A stretch of 55,821 nucleotides of DNA. Source: Candidatus Galligastranaerophilus intestinavium. GTDB taxonomy: Bacteria > Cyanobacteriota > Vampirovibrionia > Gastranaerophilales > Gastranaerophilaceae. The DNA lies in the NCBI GenBank assembly GCA_018716625.1, contig DVJQ01000010.1:1-55821 (forward strand), written 5' to 3'. The notes under the pieces are model-generated. The model did not search any database. It saw only the letters and a list, made by a program, of their open reading frames with translations, and was not told the origin of the DNA. Position 1 is the first letter of the stretch. Each line of letters begins with the position of its first letter. Position numbers and translations under genes: made by a program. Shown piece by piece: positions 9,232 to 29,511 of this stretch.

Positions 9232-9690
9232 TTAAAATTTCTGAATTGACTGTATTGGTCCTGAAAATATTTCTTTACCTTTTTGATAAAGAAATATGCC
9301 GCTGTATATATATGATACTCCTGCGCTTATGTCATTTTTTTCAAGATTGTTTATGCTTATAAAAACACTGAGTGCGCTTTTATCCTTTTTTTTAAAATTG
9401 CTTGTAATTGTATAGTAGTTGTTATTCCCGTTAAGGGTAAAACTTGTGCCCTCAAGATTAAGCAAACCTGCACTTTTTTCGACCGTTTTAAGCGCACAAG
9501 CTCCAATTTCAGATGTTGATTTTGTATTTTGTGCTTGTATTTGTATATTTGCTATTATTTCGTTTGCAATATTTACAACGCTGTGCTTTGCTCTCCAAAA
9601 CAATGATAGTTCTATAATTGAAAGAAATATTGACATAATAATAAGAAAGACAAAGCTAAACTCAAGAATACTTTGGGCTAATTTTTTCAT
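9232..9690 (-). CDS. TadE-like pseudopilin
   Basis: 152 residues with the N-terminal pattern of TadE/TadG proteins: MKKLAQSILEFSFVFLIIM, a short basic stretch, an E five residues into a hydrophobic helix, then an extracytoplasmic domain with a Cys. Such proteins are processed by prepilin peptidases and assembled in Flp/Tad pili, or act as surface pseudopilins. No Tad ATPase or secretin is in this window. Starts inside the stop of the preceding gene (ATGA overlap), last gene of a four-gene operon. Confidence 0.7.
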   Translation of the reverse strand: MKKLAQSILEFSFVFLIIMSIFLSIIELSLFWRAKHSVVNIANEIIANIQIQAQNTKSTSEIGACALKTVEKSAGLLNLEGTSFTLNGNNNYYTITSNFKKKDKSALSVFISINNLEKNDISAGVSYIYSGIFLYQKGKEIFSGPIQSIQKF

Positions 9691-10070
9691 AGATTTATCA
9701 TCTTCTTTAAGCGCTCTATAACCGTCTTTTTATCTATGTTTGGGTATATGAGAGAGTCTTTGTGATATTTGTTATATTCTTCAATAATATTAAAAGGCAG
9801 GGGGCTGCCATCGCTCAGAATATTTGCAATGTCCTCAAGATACGAGTCTTGTTCTGTGCGATACATCTCGTCTTTTTTTCTTAAATCTTCGTCTGCCTCA
9901 AAGTGCACCAGTGCATGAAAGGCGGCATTTAGAGTTGTGTCCCCAAGGTTTTTAGGATACTCTTTAAGTGCTTGCAATACGGTAATTTTCTGTGCAAGTA
10001 CATCTAAAATCAGCCCCGATACTTTCTTTCTATCCTTTATATATTGTGCATTGTTGTTCGTATTTTGCAT
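9687..10070 (-). CDS. Hypothetical protein between BlaI-like and TadE-like genes
   Basis: Unrecognised 127-residue hydrophilic, mostly helical protein (MQNTNNNAQYIKDRK start). It has no signal peptide, membrane segment or Cys. I placed the start at the ATG 2 nt after the BlaI-like stop; the frame is open further upstream only through the overlapping gene. It overlaps the TadE-like gene by 4 nt, so the three are translationally linked. Acidic middle part (HFEADEDLRKKDEMY). No function proposed. Confidence 0.65.
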   Translation of the reverse strand: MQNTNNNAQYIKDRKKVSGLILDVLAQKITVLQALKEYPKNLGDTTLNAAFHALVHFEADEDLRKKDEMYRTEQDSYLEDIANILSDGSPLPFNIIEEYNKYHKDSLIYPNIDKKTVIERLKKMINL

Positions 10071-10072
10071 TT

Positions 10073-10435
10073 TTAATTCACCATGATAGCGGGAGTGTCG
10101 TTTTCGCACATTGATTTTGTTATGTGCATAAGTCTTGTCATGTCCCCGTTGCAATATCTTGCAGCTATCTTTTTTAATGATGTTGCTATTATATCTGAAT
10201 TTGAATATGCCGTTCTGTAAAAGAATTTTTTGCCTTGTTTTATTCTTAAAAGCATTTCTTTTTCAAACAGTCTGTCCATAACTGTTTTTATAGTTGTATA
10301 GGCGCGTTTTGTATTATCTGTTTTTGATAAAAATTCCCATACATCTTTTACCGAGTTTTTATATATGCCTGACTTTTCAAGTTCCCACATTGCATTTAGT
10401 ATTATGCTCTCAAGTGATCCATGTTTAAAATTCAT
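10073..10435 (-). CDS. BlaI/MecI/CopY-family transcriptional repressor
   Basis: 120-residue winged-helix DNA-binding protein. The family pattern is clear: LESIILNAMWELEKSG, VKDVWEFLS, then AYTTIKTVMDRLFEKEMLLR (recognition helix) and the wing GKKFFYRTAY. In BlaI systems the repressor is cleaved by a BlaR1 (M56) sensor; none is encoded nearby, so the inducing signal here is unknown. Ribosome site AAAGGAT. Probably autoregulates the lipoprotein-BlaI-TadE operon it sits in, but I found no clear palindromic operator. Confidence 0.8.
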   Translation of the reverse strand: MNFKHGSLESIILNAMWELEKSGIYKNSVKDVWEFLSKTDNTKRAYTTIKTVMDRLFEKEMLLRIKQGKKFFYRTAYSNSDIIATSLKKIAARYCNGDMTRLMHITKSMCENDTPAIMVN

Positions 10436-10453: not shown

Positions 10454-10804
10454 TTAGTATCTTGTTTTAAAATGTTCTGCATCAAATCTTACGTCTTTTG
10501 GTCCAAGATTTGTTTTGTCTTTGATTTGAAATCTGTAACCTGTTGTATTTACAACTGATTCGTCTTTGTATATGTAAACTCCTGATTTTGTTCGCGTTAT
10601 TGGCCCTTGATCTTCTTTTTTAGATTTCCCCTGTGTTTGAGTACTGTTTAGAAGGTCTAAGACTTTATGTCCGGGCATTTTGTGCGTGTTGACAAAGTTT
10701 TCTTTTTGATTGCAGCCACATAAGCAAGTCAAGGTAACAGCTCCCAACAAGCAATACGCTATAAGTGATGTTGCTTTTTTAAATTTTATCTCCATAATGC
10801 GCAT
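10454..10804 (-). CDS. Small lipoprotein
   Basis: About 117 residues. Basic N-terminus, hydrophobic helix and lipobox L28-C-G-C31 predict lipidation and anchoring by Lgt/LspA. The mature part is polar with no family I recognise (motif SGVYIYKDESVVN). I chose the ATG giving MRIMEIKFKK because it lies 7 nt after an extended -10 box; a further ATG three codons upstream would overlap that box. First gene of the operon with the BlaI-like repressor and TadE-like protein. Confidence 0.7.
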   Translation of the reverse strand: MRIMEIKFKKATSLIAYCLLGAVTLTCLCGCNQKENFVNTHKMPGHKVLDLLNSTQTQGKSKKEDQGPITRTKSGVYIYKDESVVNTTGYRFQIKDKTNLGPKDVRFDAEHFKTRY

Positions 10805-10811
10805 TACTACC

Positions 10812-10820
10812 ATTATAGCA
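10812..10820 (-). promoter_or_regulatory. Extended -10 of a leaderless lipoprotein promoter (candidate)
   Basis: TGC-TATAAT on the minus strand, a perfect extended -10, followed by GGTAGTA and ATG. Seven nucleotides separate the box from the start codon, so the transcript should begin at or next to the ATG. Drives the lipoprotein-BlaI-TadE operon. Confidence 0.55.
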
Positions 10821-10903: not shown

Positions 10904-11698
10904 ATGAATATTGGTGTTTTATGTGTTGCAACGGGCAGGTATGTGTGTTTTTGGGATGAATTTTATAAAAGCGCCAAAGAATTTCTCTTTAAGAACCATA
11001 ATGTCCACTTTTTTGTGTATAGTGATGCTTCTGAAATAAATTATGAAGATAATGACGATGTGACAAAGCTTTTTGCTCAATCGTCAAAATGGCCTATAAG
11101 CGTTTGTGATAAGTTTGCAATTTTATTAAGCAGAAAAAAATTTTACAAGGATTTTGATTATCTTTTTCACTTTAATATCAATATGAAGTTCATTGCGCCC
11201 ATTGGGGATGAAATATTGCCTGATAAGGATAACGGGTATCTGTGCGCTTGTGAATGGATTAATCATAAGCTAAAAGGCGTGGTTGATAATTTCCCTTATG
11301 AGCGAAATTCACGCTCACTTGCATATATTCCCTACGGTGAGGGCAGCCATTACTTTATGAGCGGTGCATTTGGCGGAAGAACAAAAGAATACATAGAGAT
11401 GTGTTCTGAAATTGAAGATAATATCAGACGGGATTTTCAAGACGGGATTATCGCAATATGGCATGACGAGAGCCATTTTAACAAATATATGTTAAATAAA
11501 AACCCGCTTATTATGCCAAGCGGCTATATAATTCCTGAAAATTGGAAAATTAAAAGTTGCAAAAACAACCGCAGAGGTTTGCTTTTAAACAAAAAACATT
11601 GGAAGTACGGCGGTCAAAGCTATCTGAGAGGTATAAGCGATAAGAAAATTACGCCCTTTAAATATTGGGTTTCAAAACTTTTTAATGTAAAGGTTTAG
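10904..11698 (+). CDS. Glycosyltransferase family 6 (histo-blood-group A/B type fold)
   Basis: 264-residue retaining glycosyltransferase of the GT6 family, whose animal members make ABO and alpha-Gal antigens. Diagnostic features: WHDESHFNKY at 186-195 (the GT6 signature near the acceptor site) and FMSGAFGG around 151-158. Where animal enzymes have DXD this one has N91-I-N93, the NXN substitution described for bacterial GT6 enzymes, which work without metal. No signal peptide. It would add alpha-Gal or alpha-GalNAc to a surface glycan; which sugar cannot be decided by eye. Good ribosome site. Stop interlocked with the convergent GT8 gene. Confidence 0.85.
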   Translation: MNIGVLCVATGRYVCFWDEFYKSAKEFLFKNHNVHFFVYSDASEINYEDNDDVTKLFAQSSKWPISVCDKFAILLSRKKFYKDFDYLFHFNINMKFIAPIGDEILPDKDNGYLCACEWINHKLKGVVDNFPYERNSRSLAYIPYGEGSHYFMSGAFGGRTKEYIEMCSEIEDNIRRDFQDGIIAIWHDESHFNKYMLNKNPLIMPSGYIIPENWKIKSCKNNRRGLLLNKKHWKYGGQSYLRGISDKKITPFKYWVSKLFNVKV

Positions 11699-12624
11699 AA
11701 TTTATACTCCGTATTTTTAACTATTCTCATAAAGTCTTTGCGCCTGTTTTCTTTTAAAAAGAAGCAAGGATACATTTTGATGTGCCAAAACATTTGACAG
11801 AGTTTTTTGTGCATAAAAAGTACTGTGTTTCTTATTTTAAGTTGCTGTTTATCGTTTGAAAACGGTGTTTTTGCAAAGTATTCCCAAAACTTTTCGCGAT
11901 AAATGTTGTAAAACCCTATCTTCCAAGGTTTAATACCCGCAAAGTGCGCAATAGTCGGATGTAAATCGTTTGGAAAATAAAAGTTTATTGTAATAAAGTT
12001 GTATTTTCTGTCCATTTGCTTTACATGTCCCAAGAGCACTGCATTCATGATATCTTGATCGCTATAGCTTAATTTTTCCCAGTTTGCCTTCAGATAGTCA
12101 AACATCTTTTTTTCAATGTTGTCTTGGCGCATTTTTTCTAAATCCAAAAGACAAACGCCGGCATTAAAGTAAAAATTATTTGAATTTTGCTCAAAACCCA
12201 TGCGCGCCATATGTAAATGCCCGCCCATATCCTCAACACATGCCGCGTACTGCGAAGGACTGAGTTGTGTAAAAAACAATTCCGAGAGGCTTTTTAAAAC
12301 TATTAAGTCGCAATCAAGATATAATATTCTCTTAACATCTTTTAGCAGTGAGGGTAACATAAGCCTGTAAAGTGTGGGTATGGTTACATCTTTGCATACG
12401 CCGTTATTGAAATATGGTTCAAAAATAGAATTATCTATTTTATGAAAAACCACATTTCCGCACTGTTTAAGTTTTTCCATATTATCTTGTTGTAGTTTTG
12501 AATATAGTATATGAAAAATCAATTCTTCATCGGGGTTTTTATTTTCATTGGCACTTTTTATTACTACTGCCGCGTATTTTGAATAATTGTCATCTGTTGA
12601 CAAACATATATCTAGCTTTTTCAT
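11695..12624 (-). CDS. Glycosyltransferase family 8
   Basis: 309-residue retaining glycosyltransferase like LPS galactosyl/glucosyltransferases. N-terminal DICLSTDDNYSKYAAVVI, metal-binding D104-C-D106 in ILYLDCDLIVL, then YFNAGVCLLDLEKMR and SDQDIMNAVL. C-terminal HFAGIKPW is the GT8 HxxGxxKPW motif. The basic, aromatic tail could associate with the membrane. Likely acts on lipooligosaccharide or another surface glycan with the GT6 and GT2 genes beside it. No Shine-Dalgarno; a TGn-extended -10 lies 7 nt upstream. Confidence 0.88.
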   Translation of the reverse strand: MKKLDICLSTDDNYSKYAAVVIKSANENKNPDEELIFHILYSKLQQDNMEKLKQCGNVVFHKIDNSIFEPYFNNGVCKDVTIPTLYRLMLPSLLKDVKRILYLDCDLIVLKSLSELFFTQLSPSQYAACVEDMGGHLHMARMGFEQNSNNFYFNAGVCLLDLEKMRQDNIEKKMFDYLKANWEKLSYSDQDIMNAVLLGHVKQMDRKYNFITINFYFPNDLHPTIAHFAGIKPWKIGFYNIYREKFWEYFAKTPFSNDKQQLKIRNTVLFMHKKLCQMFWHIKMYPCFFLKENRRKDFMRIVKNTEYKF

Positions 12625-12675: not shown

Positions 12676-13656
12676 ATGGAACCTCTTGTAAGCGTTATAA
12701 TGCCTGTATATAATACACCTGAGCCTATTTTAAGAGAAGCAATTGAGAGTATTTTAAACCAGACTTTAAAAAATTTTGAATTTATAATTATAGATGACTG
12801 TTCAAAAAAAAGTATTCAGCCCATAGTTGACAGTTATTGCGATAACAGAGTTATCTTTTTAAGAAATAAAGAAAATTTAGGTGTAACGGGTGCCCCAAAC
12901 GTTGGTCTTGATAATTCAAGAGGTGTTTATATTGCAAGAATGGACTCGGATGACATAGCTCATCCTGACAGATTAAAAATGCAGGTAGATTTTCTTGAGA
13001 ATAATCAGAATATAGACATTTTAGGAACGGCTTTTGAAAAATTTCCGAAAAAGAAAATTGTTCGTCTGCCGCTTGATGATAAAGCCATAAAACTTGCAAT
13101 GATTTTTAACTATAACGCTATTTGTCACCCCTCTGTTATGATTAGAAAATCAACAATTGATAAATTAAAAATCAGGTACGAAAAAAAGCATGAAGTCTGC
13201 GAGGACTATGGTGTTTGGCTAAAGTATATTAATGATGTTAAGTTTGCAAATTTGAACGATGTACTTTTAAAATATCGCTGGAACGGAAATAATATTTCAA
13301 AAAGGAAAACAAAACTGCAGAGCGCAAACACTCAAATACTTATGTTTAAGGCTCAGGGAGAATATTTCGGGGTTGATTATAAGCCCGCTATAGAGGTGGT
13401 TGCAAAATGCAGAGATGACAAAATTGTAATTTCTTCAGATTTAATTGTAATGAATGATTTTATTAAAGAAATAAAAAATAAATTAAAATCTGCAATGCCC
13501 GAGTGCCAATATAGTGTAAATCGAAATTTTTATAAAACCTTTTTAAAAAAATGCGTGAGCGATATAAGTTTTATTCAAATACTTTTTTCAAAAGAGTTGA
13601 ATGATATTATTAAACTTTCACTTTTTGAAAAGTTGGGCATGATTATCGGTATATAG
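12676..13656 (+). CDS. Glycosyltransferase family 2 (surface glycan)
   Basis: 326-residue inverting glycosyltransferase. GT-A core in the first ~220 residues: LVSVIMPVYNTPEPIL, FIIIDDCS, ENLGVTGAPNVGL, and the DXD-type ARMDSDDIAHP. GTAF and EDYGVWLKY match the usual acceptor region. The C-terminal ~100 residues are unassigned. Divergent from the GT8 gene; with GT6 and GT8 it forms a small glycan-assembly cluster. A GGA 6 nt before the ATG is a weak ribosome site. Confidence 0.88.
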   Translation: MEPLVSVIMPVYNTPEPILREAIESILNQTLKNFEFIIIDDCSKKSIQPIVDSYCDNRVIFLRNKENLGVTGAPNVGLDNSRGVYIARMDSDDIAHPDRLKMQVDFLENNQNIDILGTAFEKFPKKKIVRLPLDDKAIKLAMIFNYNAICHPSVMIRKSTIDKLKIRYEKKHEVCEDYGVWLKYINDVKFANLNDVLLKYRWNGNNISKRKTKLQSANTQILMFKAQGEYFGVDYKPAIEVVAKCRDDKIVISSDLIVMNDFIKEIKNKLKSAMPECQYSVNRNFYKTFLKKCVSDISFIQILFSKELNDIIKLSLFEKLGMIIGI

Positions 13657-13657
13657 T

Positions 13658-15325
13658 CTATTTTGTCATGTTTTTGGAGCGCAGTTGTCTGTGGAATGTT
13701 ATTGCAAATCTGTGTGCTTCATCTCTTATTCTTTGAAACAGATGTAATGCCGGAGAATTTAGTGCAAAAATGACTGGCTGAGTTTTGTTTGGCAAAAATA
13801 CTTCTTCTTCGCGTTTTGCAAGAGATACTATATCTAAATTCAGTCCCATTTCTTTCATAACTTCAATAACGCTTGAAAGCTGCCCTTTGCCGCCGTCAAT
13901 TATTATTAAGTCAGGAGGTTGAATTTCGCCGGATTTAATTCTTTTAAATCTCCTTTTTAAAATTTCTCGCATGCTTTTAAAATCGTCAACTTCGCCTTTT
14001 TCAAGAGTTCTCAGCTTGTATTTTCTGTATTTTGATTTTTTTGGCATACCGTTTTCAAAATATACGCCTGAGGCAACGGTATTTGTCCCTTGAATGTGCG
14101 AGATGTCGTAGCACTCAATTGTGTGGGGGAACTTTTTGAGGTTAAGTTTTTCCATTAAATAAGTGCCGACTTCATTGTAGTCATTTTGTATAATAGTAAG
14201 TTCTTTTAATTTTGCCTGCTCAAGATTAAATTCTGCGGTATTTTGCGCCATTGTAAGCATTTCTTTGTCGCGTTGTGATTTTGCTTCGTTTATGCTTACG
14301 GTTTTGCCAAGTCGAGCACTCAGCCATTTTTCATAGAGTTCAATGTCGTCAAGTTTTGTGCCGAGAGTTATTTTAGAGGGTATTTCAGTATCCGTAATTA
14401 TCCCGTAATACTCCCTGAGGACAGCTTGTGCTATTTCATTTATGTCATTTACCTGCGAATTTGCAAGATGAGAGAATGTGAAATCTTTTTTATTTATGAG
14501 CCTGCCTTGCCTTACCTGTAAAATTGTTGCGCAGTATAGACTGTCTGATTTTACAATGCCTACAAAATCTTGGTTTATACGGGTGTTTTCACTGACAACT
14601 TTTTGTTTTTCCATTGTCTTTTTAATGTCGTTGTAGCTGTCGCGATACCTTGCTGCCTTTTCAAATTCAAGATTGTCGCTTGCTTTTTTCATCTCGTTTT
14701 CAAGCGCTTTTAAAAGTTCGCCTTGTCTGCCCGATAAAAAAAGCTCCACATCTTTTAGTATTTTTTTATAATCTTCGCTTGTTATGAGTTTTTGGCAAGG
14801 TGCGCTGCATTGCCCTATGTCATAGTAAAGACAAGGACGGGATTTAAACTTTGGTGTTTTGCATTTTTTAAGCGGAAAAATCTTGCCGAGAGTCTCAAGT
14901 GTGCAATACATTGCGCGAGAATCCGTATATGGCCCAAAGTACTTACCCTTTTGCATGTTTTTGTTTGCTTTTCTTACGACTGTAATTCTCGGGTATTCTT
15001 CATCAGTTATCAAAAAATAGGGGAATTTTTTATCGTCTTTAAGTAAAATGTTGTATTTGGGTTTGTATTTTTTGATAAGTTCAGATTCAAGTATTAGCGC
15101 CTCAACCTCTGTGTTTACAACAATACATTCAACTTTAACAATCTGCGGCACCATAACCTGAAGCTTTGGCGAGTCTTTTTTGTCGCCTACAAAATAGCTG
15201 TTTACGCGATTGTACAAGTTTTTTGCTTTGCCGATGTAAATTATCTCTCCGTTTTTATCAAAATACTGATAACATCCGGGGAGTTTTGGCATTAGCTTAA
15301 TTTGCTTTTTAATGTCTGTATTCAT
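13658..15325 (-). CDS. uvrC: Excinuclease ABC subunit C, lacking C-terminal HhH domain
   Basis: Makes both incisions in nucleotide excision repair with UvrB. Domains in order: GIY-YIG nuclease (~15-95, GCYQYF and IIYIGKAKNLYNRV), Cys-rich [4Fe-4S] region (~155-180, CKTPKFKSRPC and GQCSAPC), UVR/UvrB-binding segment (~205-235, LEFEKAARYRDSY), and the RNase H-like nuclease (~375-545, ECYDISHIQG, DLIIIDGGKGQ). It stops right after DEAHRFAITFHRQLR, 8 residues later, so the tandem helix-hairpin-helix domain normally at ~550-610 is absent. I checked beyond the stop and found no HhH coding. Overlaps the DUF192 gene by 17 nt. Confidence 0.95.
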   Translation of the reverse strand: MNTDIKKQIKLMPKLPGCYQYFDKNGEIIYIGKAKNLYNRVNSYFVGDKKDSPKLQVMVPQIVKVECIVVNTEVEALILESELIKKYKPKYNILLKDDKKFPYFLITDEEYPRITVVRKANKNMQKGKYFGPYTDSRAMYCTLETLGKIFPLKKCKTPKFKSRPCLYYDIGQCSAPCQKLITSEDYKKILKDVELFLSGRQGELLKALENEMKKASDNLEFEKAARYRDSYNDIKKTMEKQKVVSENTRINQDFVGIVKSDSLYCATILQVRQGRLINKKDFTFSHLANSQVNDINEIAQAVLREYYGIITDTEIPSKITLGTKLDDIELYEKWLSARLGKTVSINEAKSQRDKEMLTMAQNTAEFNLEQAKLKELTIIQNDYNEVGTYLMEKLNLKKFPHTIECYDISHIQGTNTVASGVYFENGMPKKSKYRKYKLRTLEKGEVDDFKSMREILKRRFKRIKSGEIQPPDLIIIDGGKGQLSSVIEVMKEMGLNLDIVSLAKREEEVFLPNKTQPVIFALNSPALHLFQRIRDEAHRFAITFHRQLRSKNMTK

Positions 15326-15659
15326 CAATCTCTATTTTATCACCAATTTTGACCTTGGGGCAGAGATTTACAAATTCTATCGTATATTTTGCTCTAAAGA
15401 CGGGTTTTAAAATCAAAAATGGTGGAATATTAAATTTATAATCAATTACATTAAAATTGCTGTCCAAAAAAATAGCGTTAAACCTAAAAAATACAAACAA
15501 AGAGTGTATCCAAAAGGCATTTTTAAAAATAAGAATTTTTTGCTCTTTTGGTTTTATTTGAAACATTAGCCCTAAAAATCTTTTAAGAAAGGAGTCTTGC
15601 ACATAGGCATTATTTGATAATAAGTTATTGTTTAAAAATATTTTTGTTTTTTTTGTCAT
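15309..15659 (-). CDS. DUF192 family protein
   Basis: ~116 residues fitting DUF192: KRFLGLMFQ near the start, then WIHSLFVFFRFNAIFLDSN in place of the usual WMxxMxFPLDVVFLD, a PP motif in the loop, and C-terminal KIGDKIEI. Many homologues are exported; here I see no signal peptide. Function of the family is unknown. A GTG two codons upstream could also start it. Leads into uvrC with overlapping reading frames. Confidence 0.75.
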   Translation of the reverse strand: MTKKTKIFLNNNLLSNNAYVQDSFLKRFLGLMFQIKPKEQKILIFKNAFWIHSLFVFFRFNAIFLDSNFNVIDYKFNIPPFLILKPVFRAKYTIEFVNLCPKVKIGDKIEIDEYRH

Positions 15660-26841: not shown

Positions 26842-27552
26842 ATGAAAAATTTATTTTTAAAATCTGCAGGTGTTGTACTATGCATGTCTTTGCTAACAAG
26901 TGCAAATACTGTTTATTGTGCTTCTAATTACTCTTTTGATAAAGCTACTTCCAATACAAACTATAGTACGCTTCAGGGCAAAGTTGTTTATGTTCCGGTA
27001 GGAACTACTGCAAGCGCTGTTCTTTCGCAGGAAATTAATTCGCAAACATGTTCTAAAGGCACCAATGTTTACGCAACCTTGGATAAAAATTTTGTTTATG
27101 AAGGAATTACTGTTGCTCCGGCGGGCTCTATGCTTAACGGTACCGTAGTTGATTGTCAAAAAGCAGGTCTTGGCAACAGAAACGGTCAAGTTGAGATTCG
27201 TTTTACCTCAATCCGCACTCCTCAGGGGTATAATATCCCTGTTAGTGCAATGATTTTAACTACAGACGGCAGTGGTGTTTTAAGGGGCGGTGCAACAAAA
27301 GATTCTGCAAAAGACTATGGTAAAAACGTCGCAATAGGTGCTGCGGGAGGTGCTGTGTTGGGTACGGCCTTAGGACCTCTTTCAGGCGGCAAAGTCGGCA
27401 AGGGTGCAATATATGGTACAGCAGTTGGCGGCGGACTAGGTTTGCTAAATGCAGCTAGACAATCGGGTGAAAGTGTTACAATTCCAGCAAATGCTGCTGT
27501 TGAGATTTATTTTGACCAACCTATAACGCTTAGTGCTCCAAGCGGTTATTAA
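26842..27552 (+). CDS. Exported protein with VirB10-like beta domain and glycine zipper
   Basis: 236 residues. Signal peptide (cleavage near VYCA-SN). A beta domain at ~50-150 (GTTASAVLSQEINS, GTNVYATLDKNF, VAPAGSMLNGTVVDC, IRTPQGYNIPV) has the pGT...S-K/P-G...iPkGS...G pattern of TrbI/VirB10 C-terminal domains. A glycine-zipper segment follows (~165-205, GAAGGAVLGTALG and GTAVGGGLGLL), typical of envelope proteins that insert in membranes. Strong GGAGG ribosome site. Upstream of and co-oriented with tonB-exbB-exbD. Confidence 0.65.
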   Translation: MKNLFLKSAGVVLCMSLLTSANTVYCASNYSFDKATSNTNYSTLQGKVVYVPVGTTASAVLSQEINSQTCSKGTNVYATLDKNFVYEGITVAPAGSMLNGTVVDCQKAGLGNRNGQVEIRFTSIRTPQGYNIPVSAMILTTDGSGVLRGGATKDSAKDYGKNVAIGAAGGAVLGTALGPLSGGKVGKGAIYGTAVGGGLGLLNAARQSGESVTIPANAAVEIYFDQPITLSAPSGY

Positions 27553-27592
27553 TAAAATAGTAAATCGGCTAATTTAAAATAATTTATTTTGT

Positions 27593-27598
27593 TTGACA
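27593..27598 (+). promoter_or_regulatory. Perfect -35 hexamer upstream of the TonB-like gene
   Basis: TTGACA 35 nt before the TonB-like start. The -10 that should follow at 16-18 nt is poor (TAAGTA). May allow separate transcription of tonB-exbB-exbD-AsmA. Confidence 0.3.
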
Positions 27599-27633
27599 AT
27601 TAAGCCAATGAATACATAAGTAAACGAGAAATT

Positions 27634-28830
27634 ATGACAAAGCTAAGAGATAGATTTGATATTGATGATTCGGATAATATGACAGATGTGGAGTATAAAA
27701 CACTCCCAAACAGTTTTGAGGATGATACAGATGAGCTGTCTTTAAGGAATTCCCTTATTGTTTCTGCTATATTACACCCTATAGTGTTTTTTATTGTATG
27801 GGCTTTAATTGCGTTTGCAATTAGTCTTAATTTCTTCCAGAAGCCTGCGCTCAAGCCAAGAGATATTGAGTTTGTGTTAACTCAAAACGAAGCCCCTCCT
27901 ATCAACAAGAACACAAAATATCGCTCCGATAAAAATTCAAGAGCAGGCGGTATTCATGACCCCAAAAGGGTAGTGTCTATACCAAGTGCTCCTTCAACTC
28001 CAAGCAAAAAATCGGTTGCTGCTCCTTCAAGTGTTCCAAAACAGGTTACAAAGCCACAGAAACAGCAAGCTAAGCCTAAAACGACTCCGTCTAAAACTCA
28101 GGTCAAAACGCCTCAAAAGCAGCGAGTGCAAGATGTGCCTAAAAAACCTCAACCGGTAAAGGCGCCTTCGCCCTTGTTTAAGCCCAGTATCAGACCGTCG
28201 GCTACACCACCAAAAACTCAGGCTCCAAAATTGACTCAGGCGCCAAAAAGCCCATTTTCGGTAGCTGTTCCAAAGAGCTCTGCTCCCGTAGGACCTGCAC
28301 CAACGTATGGTTCAGGCAGTGGTACAAAAGCTTCAAGTTCGGGTTCTTCATCAGGCTCATCTTCTCGCTCAAGTGGCATGCCTGCACCGCAATTTTCAGC
28401 TTCTAAGGGCGGCTCGGGCTCCTCTGCTTCAAGAGGCTCAACAGGCTCAAGAGGCTCAGGTTATTCAGGCGGTAACGTTGGCAATCCCGGACCTGGAAAT
28501 CCTTCAGGCCCTCCGGGGATTGATGCAATAAGACAACCAAATTGGGGTCCTTATATGAGAGATTTGGAAGCAAGGATTAAGCGCAATTGGAACCCTCCTA
28601 AGGGAGATCAAAGTAAGCGTGTAGTGCTTCTCTTTAAAATCGGTCGTGATGGCAGATTGCTTTCCATACAAACAGTCAAAAGCTCAGGTCAACCGTTGTC
28701 CGATACGGCTGCAAAGACGGCTGTAGAGCTTACAGCTCCGTTCAAACCGTTACCTCCGGAGTTTAAAGGCAGTAGTATAGATATTGAGTTCACATTTGAC
28801 TACAATGTGCTTGGTGCAAGTTACAGATAA
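27634..28830 (+). CDS. TonB/TolA-like energy transducer
   Basis: 398 residues. Acidic cytoplasmic tail, one membrane helix (~41-66) containing S44-A-I-L-H48, matching the Ser-x3-His motif of TonB/TolA helices that engage ExbB/ExbD. Then a long Pro/Lys/Gln linker and a Ser/Gly-rich stretch (to ~290) able to span the periplasm, and a C-terminal TonB/TolA fold (~300-398: YMRDLEARIKRNWNPP, VVLLFKIGRDGRLLSIQ, ELTAPFKPLPPEF). Transmits proton-motive force to an outer-membrane partner. No TonB-dependent receptor, TolB or Pal is in the window. First gene of the motor operon. Confidence 0.88.
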   Translation: MTKLRDRFDIDDSDNMTDVEYKTLPNSFEDDTDELSLRNSLIVSAILHPIVFFIVWALIAFAISLNFFQKPALKPRDIEFVLTQNEAPPINKNTKYRSDKNSRAGGIHDPKRVVSIPSAPSTPSKKSVAAPSSVPKQVTKPQKQQAKPKTTPSKTQVKTPQKQRVQDVPKKPQPVKAPSPLFKPSIRPSATPPKTQAPKLTQAPKSPFSVAVPKSSAPVGPAPTYGSGSGTKASSSGSSSGSSSRSSGMPAPQFSASKGGSGSSASRGSTGSRGSGYSGGNVGNPGPGNPSGPPGIDAIRQPNWGPYMRDLEARIKRNWNPPKGDQSKRVVLLFKIGRDGRLLSIQTVKSSGQPLSDTAAKTAVELTAPFKPLPPEFKGSSIDIEFTFDYNVLGASYR

Positions 28831-28863
28831 TAAGTAAAATACAGAAAATGAGGATATAAAATT

Positions 28864-29511
28864 ATGGAACTTTTTTTAGAATCAATTAAAATGGATTGGC
28901 CGGTTTTAACTCCGATATTCATTTGTTCAATTCTTACAATTGCTGTTGCAATAAACAGATTTTATTATTACAAGAAAAATGACCGTAACATAGGTGAGTT
29001 TATACAAACTTTGCAAAGAGCACTTGTAAAAAATAACATTGGCGCCGCACAAAGAGCCTCTGTACAACTTGGTGGTATTATAAGCGAAATGGTTGATGAA
29101 GGTTTAAGAATATACACTGAGCAACGTTCCGGTTTTTCCAGAGCTTATGATATTTCATCCAGCCTTGCAACAAGAAAACTCGAAAAAGGTTTGACAATCT
29201 TAGGTACTGTTGGTGGTGTTGCCCCGTTTCTAGGTTTGTTCGGTACGGTTGTACGTATCTTGTATACATTCCAAGACTTGGCAGTTCAAGGTAATCAGTC
29301 TGCAGCGGTTGCAACGGGTATTGCCTCAGCTCTTATCGCTACGGCTTTTGGTCTTGGCGTTGCAATTGTTGCTGTTGTTCTGTATAACTATTTTCAATCT
29401 GTTGTTTCCAGATTTGAAAGTGATTTTAAATTAATTAAATTGGTATTTTTAAGCTTTATTGACTCTGATGAAGAAGTAAAAGTAGACGAATCAGGCTCAA
29501 TAGCTCTGTAA
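28864..29511 (+). CDS. ExbB/TolQ-family proton channel
   Basis: 215 residues with three membrane helices: one near the N-terminus (VLTPIFICSILTIAVAI), and two around TVGGVAPFLGLFGTVVRIL and GIASALIATAFGLGVAIVAVV, the conserved MotA/TolQ/ExbB pore region. The cytoplasmic loop carries the usual helical segment. Forms a pentamer that uses proton flow to move ExbD and TonB. 33 nt after tonB and 12 nt before exbD. Confidence 0.93.
   Translation: MELFLESIKMDWPVLTPIFICSILTIAVAINRFYYYKKNDRNIGEFIQTLQRALVKNNIGAAQRASVQLGGIISEMVDEGLRIYTEQRSGFSRAYDISSSLATRKLEKGLTILGTVGGVAPFLGLFGTVVRILYTFQDLAVQGNQSAAVATGIASALIATAFGLGVAIVAVVLYNYFQSVVSRFESDFKLIKLVFLSFIDSDEEVKVDESGSIAL

Follow-up and report, generated by a model that had tools for sequence, protein, structure and literature searches.

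The open reading frame at positions 10904-11698 of the window, the whole 55,821-nucleotide stretch of DNA that was analysed, is on the evidence of its sequence and predicted structure a divergent but genuine bacterial GT6 enzyme and a cousin of the human ABO enzyme. It is a fixed gene of a Gastranaerophilaceae genus and is under strong purifying selection. We give a probability of roughly 0.6 to the reading that the protein is an active, metal-independent, retaining GT6 that would add alpha-1,3-linked Gal or GalNAc to a surface glycan, and that its acceptor is probably recognised otherwise than in ABO or BoGT6a. The NXN state is already known in bacterial GT6 enzymes; less ordinary are the presence of the gene at the same site in every known species of the genus and the changed sugar pocket. 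The gene and its neighbours are as follows.

10073-10435, minus strand: BlaI/Penicillinase_R-like regulator, conserved left flank (PF03965, E 6e-16)
10454-10813, minus strand: small predicted lipoprotein-like gene, left-side marker of the site, flanked by the BlaI-like gene and GT6 (ORF, synteny)
10904-11698, plus strand: GT6 glycosyltransferase gene, 264 aa (Pfam, PDB sequence match, AlphaFold and fold match, alignment)
11695-12624, minus strand: GT8 glycosyltransferase, convergent with GT6 with a 4-nt overlap (Pfam PF01501, E 4e-38; synteny)
12676-13656, plus strand: GT2 glycosyltransferase, optional part of the cassette (Pfam PF00535, E 1e-32; synteny)
13658-15328, minus strand: uvrC, conserved right flank (TIGR00194, E 7e-176; synteny)

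The GT6 frame has an ATG start with an AGGAGAG ribosome-binding site just 5' of it and runs for 264 codons with zero internal stops. It matched Pfam PF03414 (Glyco_transf_6) at E = 3e-32 with 112 bits, above the cut-off of 25. The top PDB match was BoGT6a (4ayj, E = 8e-45, residues 1-242), followed by human ABO and bovine alpha-1,3-galactosyltransferase (alpha-1,3-GalT). An AlphaFold model made with 28 homologues had a mean pLDDT of 93.3 and a pTM of 0.90. Its superposition on BoGT6a covered 240 residues at 1.2 A with Z 34.6; the ABO enzymes (Z about 31) and alpha-1,3-GalT (Z 30) also matched, which indicates a GT-A fold of GT6 type. The Pfam and PDB matches and the superposition therefore bear out the GT6 assignment made in the initial annotation, and the motifs that it had listed were all found in their places: N91-I-N93 (nt 11174-11182), GAFGG at residues 154-158, and WHDESHFNKY from residue 186. 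Since the gene is conserved in all 15 congeneric genomes, its chance occurrence is excluded. NCBIfam NF041524, a family 6 glucosyltransferase subfamily, gave 217 of 250 bits (E 2e-64), which is below the subfamily cut-off and suggests that the protein is related to, yet divergent from, that subfamily.

BoGT6a of Bacteroides ovatus (PDB 4AYJ, 4CJ8) shares with the window protein its fold, NXN, the catalytic WHDE, a short form with one domain and no membrane anchor, and 36-38% identity. The catalytic region holds W186-H187-D188-E189, K230 and R242. In the alignment, E189 and K230 pair with BoGT6a Glu192 and Lys231, and the equivalents of Tyr13, Asn95, Asn97 and Arg243 are also retained. Structures of BoGT6a show the diphosphate held by Asn95, Lys231 and Tyr13 together with the peptide nitrogen of Ala96 (PMC3961637). 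A divalent metal is not needed by BoGT6a but is needed by a bacterial GT6 that carries DXD, and NXN, the published rule among bacterial GT6 enzymes, goes with metal independence (PMC3961637). NXN was seen in 17 of 17 aligned rows of the GT6 clade. The initial annotation was thus right that NXN replaces DXD but not in making it a peculiarity, because NXN is the bacterial GT6 norm (PMC3961637) and is expected here, not novel. We infer, soundly in our view, that the protein is metal-independent; Asn91, Lys230 and Arg242 would be used in place of the metal ion. Human GTA and GTB share the GT6 family and fold and have a WHDESHLNKY motif, but they carry DXD and depend on metal.

A maximum-likelihood tree of 51 GT6 proteins, in which Bacteroidota were thinly sampled (three sequences), placed the protein inside the bacterial NXN enzymes, in agreement with the initial annotation. 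The genus formed one clade (100/99) that grouped with the relative G017 (100/98). Joined by G426 and G427, they formed a larger clade (96/82) within the bacterial NXN set (96/97). The DXD forms, which came from cyanophages, huge phages, a phylum-mate and an actinomycetote, were set apart (85/63), and the vertebrate enzymes had a branch of their own. Both the tree and the motif rule out kinship with the DXD enzymes of phages and cyanobacteria, a tempting idea for a host related to cyanobacteria.

The genome to which the window belongs, as one contig, measures 1.76 Mb and is 98.95% complete. NCBI taxonomy places its order, Candidatus Gastranaerophilales, within Candidatus Melainabacteria. The gut-type bacterium predicted from the letters alone was a correct call. 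The nearest relatives are in MAGs, 70-84% identical and mostly of Candidatus Gastranaerophilales. A single copy of the gene is present in every one of the 15 genomes of the genus, one fragmented genome holding it as two contig-end pieces. Beyond the genus its distribution is patchy, with a GT6 match in 18 of 368 family genomes. The gene is thus fixed throughout a genus of a non-photosynthetic cyanobacterial gut lineage. No publication on GT6 in Melainabacteria was found in the literature searched, although absence there is not proof.

Within the genus, GT6 occupies one syntenic site with the order BlaI-like gene, GT6, GT8, optional GT2 and uvrC. The same BlaI-like gene adjoins GT6 in all 15 genomes, and GT6 is followed by GT8 and uvrC in each of the 14 in which the far side is assembled. 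In 10 genomes a GT2 separates GT8 from uvrC; it is absent in 4 and unassembled in 1. The Pfam matches (PF01501 and PF00535) confirm the GT8 and GT2 neighbours that had been read from the window. Of 60 family genomes sampled, 51 have the BlaI-like gene itself. In the window, the stretch 9687-10435 (minus strand), which holds this gene and a small gene of no assigned family, adjoins a division and cell-wall cluster (rsmH, ftsI-like, murE).

An empty site was seen in a related genus (G256, locus L099), where 79 bp separate the BlaI-like gene from uvrC and the gene order is otherwise the same; the G256 genome is absent from the list of family genomes with a GT6 match. In two further genera (G427 and G426), a GT6 of the same clade adjoins the same BlaI-like gene, accompanied by GT2 and by GT8 and/or an epimerase. 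This pattern fits a glycosyltransferase cassette that was gained before the genus radiated and was lost or never present elsewhere. Horizontal acquisition, as proposed in the initial annotation, can stand at best as an ancient gain, which the empty site and the patchy family distribution would allow. A recent gain does not stand, given that the gene is fixed at one site, and recent transfer was also rejected on base composition, which is native (GC z -0.16, GC3 z 1.35). Carriage by phages was searched for at the DNA level, with zero matches in 50,697 phage records. At the protein level, phage matches were at most 38% identical and were mostly the cyanophage forms. A plasmid search returned only two distant Bacteroidota records.

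Strong purifying selection was seen in dN/dS, which was read from close pairs only because most pairs in the genus are saturated at silent sites. The three closest pairs gave 0.020, 0.042 and 0.056 for GT6, in line with the 0.022-0.060 of FtsI and below the 0.05-0.10 that GT8 gave in close pairs. The GT6 frame is intact in all 13 genomes of the genus in which the gene is fully assembled. GT6 values as low as those of FtsI, the intact frames, and the retention of Glu189, Asp188, Lys230 and NXN make it very improbable that this GT6 is in decay or has weak catalysis and is retained for some other reason. Two observations point towards a weak enzyme. One is that the position of BoGT6a Arg73, a donor-sugar contact, is Lys in the window protein (Lys70) and in most of the genus, with Arg in G003 and G013; this replacement may alter turnover or donor preference. 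The other comes from the relatives G426 and G427, the deepest members of the clade (L102 6562-7353, L103 5570-6376), which have Gln at the catalytic Glu, the change called E192Q in BoGT6a, and Phe in place of the Trp in WHDE. BoGT6a with Gln at this position retains 4e-5 of wild-type activity (PMC3961637), and both genera may have a conserved low-activity or altered enzyme.

The sugar pocket differs consistently from that of GT6 enzymes with solved structures. Trp118 (nt 11255-11257) stands at the position of the acceptor-contacting His, which is His122 in BoGT6a and His233 in human GTA. Trp was found here in 18 of 18 clade members, covering the genus and three other genera, while 32 of 36 readable rows outside the clade have His; bovine alpha-1,3-GalT has Gln. 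The alignment of this column is gap-free from a conserved I-L-P anchor 11 residues before it, and the residue pairing is taken from the sequence alignment, the model superposition being almost gap-free. His122 of BoGT6a touches a GalNAc that occupies the acceptor site in a hydrolysed complex (PMC3961637), and the contact of His233 in a human hybrid enzyme is with the donor GalNAc (PMC4692239). Therefore, loss of the His bears on the handling of both acceptor and donor sugar. Since this sugar-contacting residue is Trp in the whole clade, the classical A/B acceptor should not be assumed, and recognition of the acceptor probably differs from that in ABO or BoGT6a; the acceptor itself may differ from fucosylated beta-galactose.

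Further differences from BoGT6a are Thr134 to Pro131, Asn69 to Ser and Thr70 to Val. Pro at the Thr134 position is found in the whole clade and is common elsewhere too. The tripeptide at 266-268 is Met-Ser-Gly in the window protein, and Met-Gly-Gly in some species, compared to Leu-Gly-Gly or Met-Gly-Ala in GTA and GTB. Gly at 268 is as in GTA. These tripeptides are outside the combinations studied in PMC6351642, and the transferred sugar may be either Gal or GalNAc.

The loss of the His also bears on whether the enzyme is of the linear alpha-Gal type, adding alpha-Gal to a non-fucosylated Gal like the vertebrate alpha-1,3-GalT. The bovine enzyme likewise lacks the acceptor-loop His and has Trp residues in the same loop (QAWW), and the loop of the window protein, CEWINH, has Trp instead of His there. 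However, the rest of the loop sequences are dissimilar, Met-Ser-Gly stands against His-Ala-Ala at 266-268 (PMC6351642), and the tree shows zero affinity of the window protein to the distant vertebrate enzymes. The bovine enzyme also differs in carrying DXD. A linear alpha-Gal identity is improbable, though slightly less so than a weak or decaying enzyme.

The genome content suggests which glycan is modified. The window genome has lpxC and a Kdo-transferase (waaA-type) gene and, therefore, probably makes the Kdo-lipid A base. The adjacent GT8 is nearest to the LPS 3-alpha-galactosyltransferase (WaaI) model NF011718 (E 1e-20), at 74 of 461 bits and below the cut-off. Because of these two genes and the similarity of the GT8 to LPS-core GT8s, the target would be a growing surface glycan, most likely the outer core or O-chain of LOS/LPS. 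The inferred role in LOS/LPS assembly draws on the GT8 similarity and on what the genome contains; linkage to an LPS operon plays no part in it. We tentatively suggest that the Trp pocket arose from an ABO-type His pocket and that GT6 caps a sugar laid down by the GT8, for example an alpha-linked hexose of the LOS core, rather than fucosylated beta-galactose. GT6 and GT8 would then be a fixed, genus-defining surface-glycan module. This proposal is plausible but falls well short of being probable.

Gut-microbe GT6 enzymes are discussed as a source of blood-group-like or alpha-Gal-like antigens, perhaps shaping natural antibodies. A true A/B-like epitope, with GalNAc or Gal alpha-1,3-linked to Fuc alpha-1,2-Gal, could be made here as by BoGT6a, BgtA and WbnI if the fucose were added by an unlinked GT11; we consider this a somewhat more doubtful reading than capping of a GT8-laid sugar. 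Helicobacter mustelae BgtA (blood-group A) and E. coli O86 WbnI (B) are, like BoGT6a, bacterial GT6 enzymes, and act in surface polysaccharide (PMC4202792). They differ in their reported Fuc-alpha-1,2-Gal acceptors, and were compared by description, not by sequence. In known systems, GT11 provides the alpha-1,2-fucosylation that precedes A/B synthesis (PMC4202792).

Each of the 15 genus genomes was found to carry at least one unlinked GT11. A blood-group-like product is thereby still possible, and an H-type (fucosylated) acceptor would fit after all. Across the family, GT11 was present in 32 of 117 genomes sampled, 5 of these 32 from the window's genus. The gmd gene is also present in the window genome. 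GT11 and GT6 occur together more often than expected: GT11 was found in 15 of at most 19 GT6 genomes versus 17 of 98 without GT6 (Fisher p 3e-7, kinship-blind), a denominator that takes four GT6 genomes with no GT11 listed to have been sampled. The excess persists without the window's genus (p 8e-5) and when counted by genus (p 0.015), again by kinship-blind Fisher tests. GT11 is also next to or near GT6 in many other Gastranaerophilaceae, in Phocaeicola and in Prevotella. It is often beside or fused to GT6 in relatives with the His form, and it is adjacent or fused in G017 as well, although the GT6 there has the Trp form.

Against an A/B epitope stand the Trp and, with its wider occurrence, the Pro at the Thr134 position. 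Also, a GT11 linked to GT6 was looked for in the 15 genus loci and found in none of them; the genomic partners there are GT8 and GT2, in contrast to an adjacent GT11. Blood-group mimicry is thus possible, but the pocket change argues against a plain A/B synthase label. A pocket that is consistently unlike those of known structures provides a defined test of what the "ABO-like" genes of the gut make. True A/B-type epitopes are more to be expected from those family members in which GT11 adjoins GT6 or is fused to it.

One such member (L146, G500:C118, 190-1686, minus strand) has a single 498-aa ORF in which GT11 (PF01531) precedes GT6 (PF03414); with this natural fusion one protein could carry out both steps, H first and an A/B-type structure next. 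The fusion and G440 (L144) are predicted to produce true A/B-type structures. Large ORFs adjoining GT6 in two other loci (L109 8752-10578 and L112 6477-8228) were matched by both GT2 and GT11 queries, which suggests GT2-GT11 fusions.

Several minor observations were made in the window and at other GT6 loci. Local GC at 27000-29000 of the window is 0.42 against an average of 0.35, in a region spanning the ORFs at 26842-29511. GT6 is present as two adjacent ORFs in L113 7883-8747 (G377) and L150 1850-2607 (G522), which are disrupted genes or assembly errors. A tandem pair of GT6 genes was seen in a Synergistaceae MAG from goat reticulum (L034 5180-6846). Finally, two phage genomes of about 635-642 kb (L094 and L098; LR745206 and LR756502) have GT6 genes of the DXD type.
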